This document shows, one piece after another, positions 1,651 to 21,895 of a DNA stretch of 60,487 nucleotides. The stretch is from a virus. Each line of letters opens with the position of its first letter. Within the stretch, counting starts at the first letter, position 1. The notes below the pieces were generated by a model, which saw only the letters and a program-made list of their open reading frames with translations, was not told the DNA's origin and ran no database searches. Both the position numbers and the translations under genes were made by a program. The DNA lies in IMG/VR virus record IMGVR_UViG_3300018481_000002, positions 87,199-147,685 of that record, one strand, 5' to 3'.

Positions 1651-1721
1651 TTGCTCCGGTCGGAATCGAACCGACGGTCTCCGACGTCAGGGCCGGTGAG
1701 TTGCCATTACTCTACAGAGTT
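1651..1721 (-). ncRNA. Degenerate tRNA-like element
   Basis: On the minus strand a T arm is clear (GTCGG-TTCGATT-CCGAC, 1659-1675), as is a D arm (GAGT-loop-ACTC, 1698-1712) with the usual TA spacer. The acceptor stem pairs at only five of seven positions (CTCTG/CGGAG), and the anticodon arm (CCGGC/GTCGG) leaves a six-base loop, so no normal anticodon can be assigned. It may be a decayed tRNA, a tRNA mimic, or a processing signal at the head of the leftward operon. Confidence 0.4.
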
Positions 1722-5535: not shown

Positions 5536-5807
5536 GACTCCCTCGCTCGCTTGACTGCCTCGTGAGCACCTTCAAGCCCGACCTCTAGGACGAGACCGAA
5601 GGCGGCGAACTTGCTCGTGATCGGGTACAGCACCGTCTCCAGGGTGATCGGATCCAGGATCACCCCCCGCTCCTCCCAGGCGCTCAGCAGGTCCCTGACC
5701 TGGCTCAGGACATACGACTGGGTGTTCGGAGGGAGGTTCATCAGGCTGTGTGCCACCGCTGAAGGCAGAAGCCGGGCTACTTCCGGCAGAGCTGTGTTGT
5801 GGTCCAT
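5532..5807 (-). CDS. Uncharacterised small protein
   Basis: 91 residues from ATG 5807. This start is preferred to ATG 5813 because AGGAG is then seven bases away. The sequence is helical (LPSAVAHSLMNLPPNTQSYVL, LLSAWEERGVILDPITLETV) with no cysteines or recognised motif. It sits between two overlapping neighbours in the leftward operon. A much longer same-frame reading exists upstream, but it runs antiparallel to the codon usage of the adjacent gene and is not credible. Confidence 0.6.
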   Translation of the reverse strand: MDHNTALPEVARLLPSAVAHSLMNLPPNTQSYVLSQVRDLLSAWEERGVILDPITLETVLYPITSKFAAFGLVLEVGLEGAHEAVKRARES

Positions 5808-19544: not shown

Positions 19545-19565
19545 GGCTAATCCCCTCGGCATGAG

Positions 19566-19599
19566 AAAGGCCCCCGGTCCTCACGGATCGGGGGCCTTT
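19566..19599 (+). terminator. Terminator after the capsid gene
   Basis: AAAGGCCCCCG-G-TCC pairs with GGA-T-CGGGGGCCTTT and runs into TTTTCC. It ends the head operon. Confidence 0.9.
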
Positions 19600-19614
19600 T
19601 CCTTGCGCTACCGT

Positions 19615-20462: not shown

Positions 20463-21044
20463 TTGAAGGTAACCATCGAGATTGACGGCACCCAGCCGCT
20501 TCTCATGCACGCAGACACCCTCGCGGACCCGCTGGACCCGCTGACCAAGGAGTTCAAGCGACTCTCCGGGAAGCGGTCCAAGACCGACGAGGACCACGAG
20601 GCCATGGCGGAGAAGGAGTTCCTCGCCAGCCTCTACCTCGATGACGGCGGCGAGATCTGCATCCCCGCAGCCAACATCAAGAAGTGCCTCATCGAGGGAG
20701 GCCGCATCACCAAGTCCGGGGCCAAGATCGAACGTGGCCTCACGCTCCTGGGCATCGACTTCGTCCTGAAGCACACCGGTCCGGCACTCCCGGCTGACCT
20801 GTACCAGGACCCGAAGTTCGTGGACAGGCGTTCCGTGAAGGTCGGCACCGCCCGCACCATGCGTGTCCGTCCCCGCTTCAACGACTGGTCCCTGCGAGTG
20901 GAGTGCGACATCGACCCCGCCGTGTGTTCCATCGATGACCTGAAGGACATCGCGACCAACGCCGGTTCCCTGGTGGGTCTCGGTGACCACCGCAAGATCG
21001 GCGGATACGGACGTTTCGTGGCGAAGGTGAGGAAGAACCCGTGA
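20463..21044 (+). CDS. Conserved phage protein with RAMP-like motifs
   Basis: 193 residues from TTG 20463, seven bases after GGAGG; the ATG at 20441 is out of frame. Visible parts: an N-terminal strand with PLLMHADTLADP, a charged helix region, ICIPAANIKKCLIEGG, RRSVKVGTARTMRVRPRF, and a C-terminal GLGDHRKIGGYGRFVA. The IPA..IK segment and the final Gly-rich loop resemble RAMP/Cas7-type RRM proteins. Homologues exist in other phages as unknowns, as I recall. Overlaps the next gene by GTGA. RNA binding is speculation. Confidence 0.6.
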   Translation: MKVTIEIDGTQPLLMHADTLADPLDPLTKEFKRLSGKRSKTDEDHEAMAEKEFLASLYLDDGGEICIPAANIKKCLIEGGRITKSGAKIERGLTLLGIDFVLKHTGPALPADLYQDPKFVDRRSVKVGTARTMRVRPRFNDWSLRVECDIDPAVCSIDDLKDIATNAGSLVGLGDHRKIGGYGRFVAKVRKNP

Positions 21045-21562: not shown

Positions 21563-21656
21563 GAGGGTCTGTGCCCACGGCAGTAGACGGAACCCGAGCT
21601 TGCTACGGTCTTGCTCGGTGTCCGCTGCCGGGGGGCTCACGTGGGCACAGACCCTC
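21563..21656 (+). ncRNA. Long hairpin RNA candidate
   Basis: GAGGGTCTGTGCCCACG pairs perfectly with CGTGGGCACAGACCCTC (17 bp). Inside, GCAG and CGGA pair with TCCG and CTGC around a small bulge, and CCGAGC pairs with GCTCGG near the tip. The stem closes four bases before the tRNA-like RNA at 21661. A U tract is lacking, so it is not a simple terminator. A linked ncRNA or a processing structure is more likely. Confidence 0.6.
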
Positions 21657-21660
21657 ACTC

Positions 21661-21739
21661 GGGGCAGGATGGGTTCGACAGCGACGTAAGTCCGCATGCG
21701 GGACGCCGCTGGACCAGGGTTCGACTCCCTGCTGCTCCA
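21661..21739 (+). ncRNA. tmRNA-like tRNA domain without message domain
   Basis: Seven-pair acceptor GGGGCAG/CTGCTCC with one G-U pair; T arm CAGGG-TTCGACT-CCCTG; a 5' side reading GGATGGGTTCGACAGCG that matches the tmRNA D-loop consensus; and, in place of D and anticodon arms, a helix CAGCGACGT/ACGCCGCTG (one mismatch) like tmRNA P2, capped by CCGCATGCGG. Both tmRNA ends are present within 79 bases, so there is no tag ORF or pseudoknot. CCA is not encoded. A Y-RNA-type tRNA mimic is an alternative. Confidence 0.6.
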
Positions 21740-21895
21740 CGGGAGGAGATGCCCGAGAAGGAACCTGGTGTCCAGTCTGGGTCGCTCCCACGCTGAAACA
21801 CGCTGAACCAGGATCCATCCAGAGGGAAAGGCGCAGGTTCTAGACTCCCTGTGCTGGATACGCTGGGGGTCTACTGGCCAGCTCTCCTCTCTCCT
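21740..21895 (+). other. Structured spacer between RNAs
   Basis: No gene is supported. CCTGGT/ACCAGG encloses a 30-40 base loop, and ATCCA/TGGAT encloses GCAGG-TTCTAGA-CTCCCTG, which echoes a T arm. It may hold a further decayed RNA or be only a precursor spacer of tRNA-Lys. Confidence 0.4.

Follow-up and report, generated by a model that had tools for sequence, protein, structure and literature searches.

The closest described counterpart of the RNA reported here is a 'TLD only' tmRNA, reduced to the tRNA-like domain, which is listed for Mycobacterium phage DS6A (PMC4131195, PMC11915505). The DS6A form is reported to inhibit endogenous tmRNA in E. coli (PMC11915505). According to the account in PMC4131195, which cites Mao 2009, a TLD-only-like molecule strongly inhibits tmRNA whether or not it can be charged, perhaps by titrating SmpB. 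The 2025 tmRNA database classifies nine of its 97,179 sequences as 'standard, no CDS' and holds 79 phage tmRNAs in all (PMC11915505). In the literature we found no phage RNA described as a 'mini-tmRNA' or 'truncated tmRNA'.

The window analysed here is a stretch of 60,487 nucleotides from an IMG/VR virus record of 147,685 bases. On its plus strand, positions 21661 (G1) to 21739 (discriminator A73) hold an element that we call a mini-tmRNA. An earlier note had read these 79 bases as the tRNA-like domain of a tmRNA lacking the tag message, with bounds that proved exact to the base. Both the Rfam tmRNA model and covarying homologues agree with this reading. The 5' strand of the acceptor, GGGGCAG (21661-21667), pairs with CTGCTCC (21732-21738) over 7 bp and contains G3-U70, the alanine identity pair, which is also found in homologues. 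It is followed by a D-loop, GGGTTCGAC (21671-21679), that is tmRNA-type by alignment to RF00023, and homologues found without forcing this motif keep or nearly keep (T)TCGAC. The P2 helix CAGCG/CGCTG, an A-rich internal loop and the hairpin CCG-CATG-CGG (21679-21711) occupy the usual place of the pseudoknots and tag ORF; P2 covaries, and the segment has no conserved resume codon plus stop. The 3' part consists of GGAC and a 5-bp T arm, CAGGGTTCGACTCCCTG (21715-21731), containing TTCGACT, which is 100% paired and has three pairs changed on both sides in A1. The CCA tail is not encoded.

A covariance search of the whole window with Rfam, as the earlier note had proposed, returned RF00023 (tmRNA) at the element with 55.6 bits (gathering 47, E 3.8e-19), and this was the best-scoring tRNA-clan family there. 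The alignment spans model positions 1 to 374, and 13 nt replace 304 of these, which bears out the suggestion that a short hairpin stands where 250-300 bases of tag ORF and pseudoknots should be. There is no room for pseudoknots PK1-PK4 in this alignment, and the resume codon, tag ORF and stop are absent from the 13 nt at their place. RF00023 also scored above its cut-off in 23 of 25 carrier records, and our family model R1 gave 81.8 bits to the window element, which belongs to its training set. We considered a hidden short tag and rejected it: GCN...stop strings occur in 24 of the 72 homologues among the matches listed, at no common position.

An ordinary tRNA, with a D stem and a 7-nt anticodon loop (RF00005), was likewise rejected. 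ARAGORN called the neighbouring tRNAs for Met, Lys and Arg in the window and no tRNA at 21661-21739, and RF00005 was not the best model, so the good tRNA score that would have spoken against the element was not obtained. In isolation, the minimum free energy fold of the 82-mer is not a cloverleaf (z = -1.3). Single-sequence folding thus lends no support, and the case for the structure rests on comparison. The element combines a phage gene, a TLD and no CDS, as TLD-only or CDS-less phage tmRNAs do, and the comparative evidence supports its identification as a tmRNA tRNA-like domain without a tag message. Elsewhere in the window, RF00005 matched 1651-1721 (-) with 39 bits at a site uncalled by ARAGORN, where the acceptor looks irregular. 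A weak ctRNA_p42d-like match at 19564-19608 (+), 30.3 bits and below gathering, is probably an ordinary terminator hairpin.

Homologues were collected from IMG/VR with pattern scans. A strict pattern hit 18 contigs and a looser one at least 119, yielding 72 distinct sequences among the matches listed after checking the acceptor. Three hits (L029, L066 and L127) were dropped because they lacked a proper acceptor, and in L011 the motif was there by chance. A second scan fixed the apical hairpin, GGAC and T arm alone, leaving the acceptor and D-loop free; together with cultured phages it provided 28 distinct sequences, 11 of them already in the first set and 6 from cultured phages. The 149 loci examined fell into 47 groups by shared DNA and 35 by translated similarity in the stored flanks, although these flanks are partial and some groups may still be related. 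Since the 35 groups lack detectable similarity to one another, the sequences indicate that this RNA is present, for the most part without annotation, in many unrelated genomes. Neither the window locus nor the window mini-tmRNA had a close phage relative by BLAST, the matches being confined to tRNAs or T arms, and relatives of the neighbouring gene at 20463-21044 led to no confirmed locus in viral contigs. Searching 397 Actinomycetota and 189 Myxococcota genomes with R1 recovered a Parafrankia prophage alone, a weak absence given the few candidates scored per genome.

The collection includes several departures from the common form. Five members (L002, L004, L089, L101 and L014) have a longer P2 arm, with 40-43 nt from D-loop to GGAC, and no CCGC hairpin, and possibly have separate origins. 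Two others, L062 at 5624-5703 and L108 at 1547-1467 (-), are nearer to standard tmRNA, scoring 76-80 bits with RF00023 and containing an AAGTGCA stretch; these may have arisen from a full tmRNA by independent deletion. When ARAGORN was run on L022 (2057-2136) and L119 (10275-10670), one mini-tmRNA was called tRNA-Gly and another was read as part of a tagged permuted tmRNA. Hence, automated annotation can mislabel these RNAs.

Comparison of homologues revealed strong covariation in P2, the acceptor and the T stem, where the lack of any covariation would have counted against the element. Among 44 representatives sharing less than 88% identity, 274 of 308 P2 cells were paired, relative to a mean of 134 and a maximum of 160 after shuffling. 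With one sequence per similarity group, 151 of 168 P2 cells remained paired (shuffled mean 78, maximum 99). The covarying P2 helix stands where a tRNA has its anticodon stem. Across all pair cells, 95.2% were paired versus 70.2% when shuffled (0 of 500) and 37-55% when partners were slid. The apical hairpin was less regular, with 81% paired.

The earlier note had also asked for a check of G-U at the alanine identity position in relatives, and the pair was present without exception. Position 3-70 is G-U in 72 of 72 distinct homologues among the matches listed, in all 28 sequences of the acceptor-free scan, and in 28 of 28 one-per-group representatives. A73 was found in 28 of 28 sequences of the scan leaving position 73 free. 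The adjacent pair 4-69, by contrast, takes all four Watson-Crick forms (GC, CG, AT and UA). A matched scan for non-U at position 70 found 0 contigs, compared with at least 119 with U; this result, a local control and the acceptor-free scan exclude pattern bias as the source of U70. Because G3-U70 never varies while its neighbour does, the alignments suggest that alanylation of the mini-tmRNA is under selection.

Upstream of the window element lies a long hairpin (21563-21656, +; z = -5.1), probably a leader element of the mini-tmRNA. Its outer stem, GAGGGTCTGTGCCCACG/CGTGGGCACAGACCCTC, pairs perfectly over 17 bp, and the hairpin ends 4 nt short of the mini-tmRNA. A stem of at least 10 bp ending 3-9 nt before G1 occurred at 12 of 60 homologous loci versus 2.5% of control positions, and the longest upstream stem is the 17 bp of the window. 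In a subset of loci G1 is preceded, at a distance of 6-9 nt, by a -10-like box. Counting gaps of 4-10, there were 14 such boxes in 61 distinct upstreams, relative to a mean of 6.1 and a maximum of 14 in 500 shuffles. No promoter or T-run terminator was found near the window mini-tmRNA. At a few loci the mini-tmRNA is followed by a terminator-like hairpin, as judged by eye. Between the mini-tmRNA and tRNA-Lys, GCGCAGGTTCTAGACTCCCTGTGC at 21831-21860 (+) resembles the T arm of a degenerate tRNA-like element and has no match in Rfam.

Cultured carriers comprise at least six Streptomyces phages (LuckySocke, GiJojo, pSt2308, Shaeky, BRock and Alone3) and one Stenotrophomonas phage, Jojan60. Their mini-tmRNAs adjoin tRNA genes and no annotation names them; that of GiJojo is covered by a 'hypothetical protein', and the T arm and D-loop of the Alone3 copy are decayed. 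The strategy is thereby open to study in laboratory phage-host pairs. Neither SmpB nor a second, full tmRNA was found in 33 carrier virus records, made up of 25 IMG/VR records, which may be incomplete, 2 more, and 6 cultured phage genomes deposited as complete. In the Parafrankia host of one prophage mini-tmRNA, a different contig encodes SmpB and an intact tmRNA of 375 nt. With no SmpB or full tmRNA in the phage records, the mini-tmRNA would rely on host AlaRS, EF-Tu and SmpB. Moreover, CCA is encoded in just 11 of the 72 homologues among the matches listed, implying that a host CCA-adding enzyme would be needed.

Given these properties, we lean towards the view that the mini-tmRNA is a chargeable decoy blocking host trans-translation. 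On this view, the phage carries a tag-less tmRNA as a gene in its own right, and host enzymes would process the RNA and add its CCA. The host's AlaRS would charge it via G3-U70, host SmpB and EF-Tu would bind it as they do tmRNA, and it would enter stalled ribosomes or compete for SmpB. Having no resume codon, tag or stop, it could not complete trans-translation, and would act as a dominant-negative decoy lowering host tmRNA activity in infection. For these phages, we infer that it is expressed, charged and bound by SmpB, and that they benefit. Counting against a decoy, phages usually benefit from ribosome rescue; furthermore, the -10-like signal covers a subset of loci and the window has no promoter. 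Decoy action agrees with, and by analogy is supported by, the reported ability of a TLD-only molecule to inhibit tmRNA in E. coli (PMC11915505, and the account in PMC4131195). However, the invariance of G3-U70 calls for more than a decoy, because the inhibition of Mao 2009, as cited in PMC4131195, was independent of chargeability. SmpB-like folds in some predicted RNA-targeting defence systems (PMC11090510) offer a lead on why a phage would gain.

Ranking second, and in our estimation rather unlikely, is rescue without a tag, wherein the charged mini-tmRNA would enter non-stop ribosomes with SmpB and take the nascent chain onto its alanine, with the ribosome recycled otherwise; such a course has been proposed for mitochondrial tmRNAs that lack a tag frame. 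This would help phage translation, not block a host pathway. Like the decoy, it predicts charging, and it would account for the conservation of G3-U70 and for the many copies in tRNA arrays supporting translation. Yet the mini-tmRNA has no stop codon for release, and we know of no release route for such rescue. Mitochondrial tmRNAs with no tag frame do persist alongside SmpB (PMC11915505), but the effect reported in E. coli, in the account of PMC4131195, is tmRNA inhibition.

We regard it as less likely again that the mini-tmRNA merely sequesters SmpB, with charging irrelevant. That non-chargeable molecules also inhibited (Mao 2009, as cited in PMC4131195) is in keeping with a passive sponge. 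Nevertheless, a sponge needs no G3-U70 unless the pair itself contacts SmpB, and an identity pair that stays fixed in both collections (72/72 among the matches listed; 28/28, one per group too) as neighbouring pairs change freely argues against so simple an explanation.

A more speculative idea, to which we give little credence, is that the mini-tmRNAs form a widespread, largely phage-specific class of RNA, and that an alanine-charged mini-tmRNA is used repeatedly, each entry into a stalled ribosome adding an untemplated alanine and freeing the A site. This could produce alanine tails, an outcome similar to RqcH alanine tailing, or divert ribosomes from SsrA tagging as a counter-defence against RNA-cutting immunity. 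It seems very improbable that the mini-tmRNA donates alanine outside the ribosome, for instance in cell-wall aminoacyl transfer: the retained alanine identity and the missing anticodon would suit such a donor, but it would have no need of the D-loop, P2 and GGAC junction specific to tmRNA, which are retained as well. Least probable of all is that integration or imprecise excision left behind part of a host tmRNA gene, as a relic or attachment-site fragment. This origin is recommended by the frequent targeting of tmRNA genes by phages and islands (PMC11915505) and by the Parafrankia prophage member, and we rejected it because both TLD halves are present with all stems covarying, the Parafrankia host tmRNA is intact on its separate contig, and complete cultured Streptomyces phages carry the mini-tmRNA within tRNA arrays.

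Set against known systems, the mini-tmRNA shares with standard tmRNA (RF00023) an acceptor with G3-U70, the GGUUCGAC D-loop, P2, GGAC and the T arm. It differs in having no pseudoknots, resume codon, tag or stop, and in its length of 79 nt versus about 370. Full phage tmRNAs (such as those of the Bxz1 group, Wildcat and Melnitz) are also phage-encoded ssrA genes that sometimes adjoin tRNAs, but they retain the message part, and none was found alongside a mini-tmRNA in the 33 virus records tested. The CDS-less tmRNAs of Mallomonadaceae plastids (~65 bp) and, in mitochondria, tmRNAs that lack a tag frame are similarly reduced to the tRNA-like part (PMC11915505); these are organellar, and the mitochondrial forms are usually permuted into two pieces. 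Nearest is the DS6A TLD-only tmRNA (tmID 11587, 'Standard, no CDS'), which is likewise phage-encoded, with little beyond the TLD and no tag frame (PMC4131195, PMC11915505). DS6A is a single reported case from one mycobacteriophage, likened here by description, whereas the mini-tmRNAs here span many lineages, many of which share the A-rich loop and CCGC-rich hairpin. With 72 distinct phage sequences among the matches listed, and more from the second scan, in unrelated genomes, what had been a curiosity of one mycobacteriophage becomes a common phage strategy. The kind of molecule is already known from DS6A; added here are its breadth, its covariation and an invariant G3-U70.
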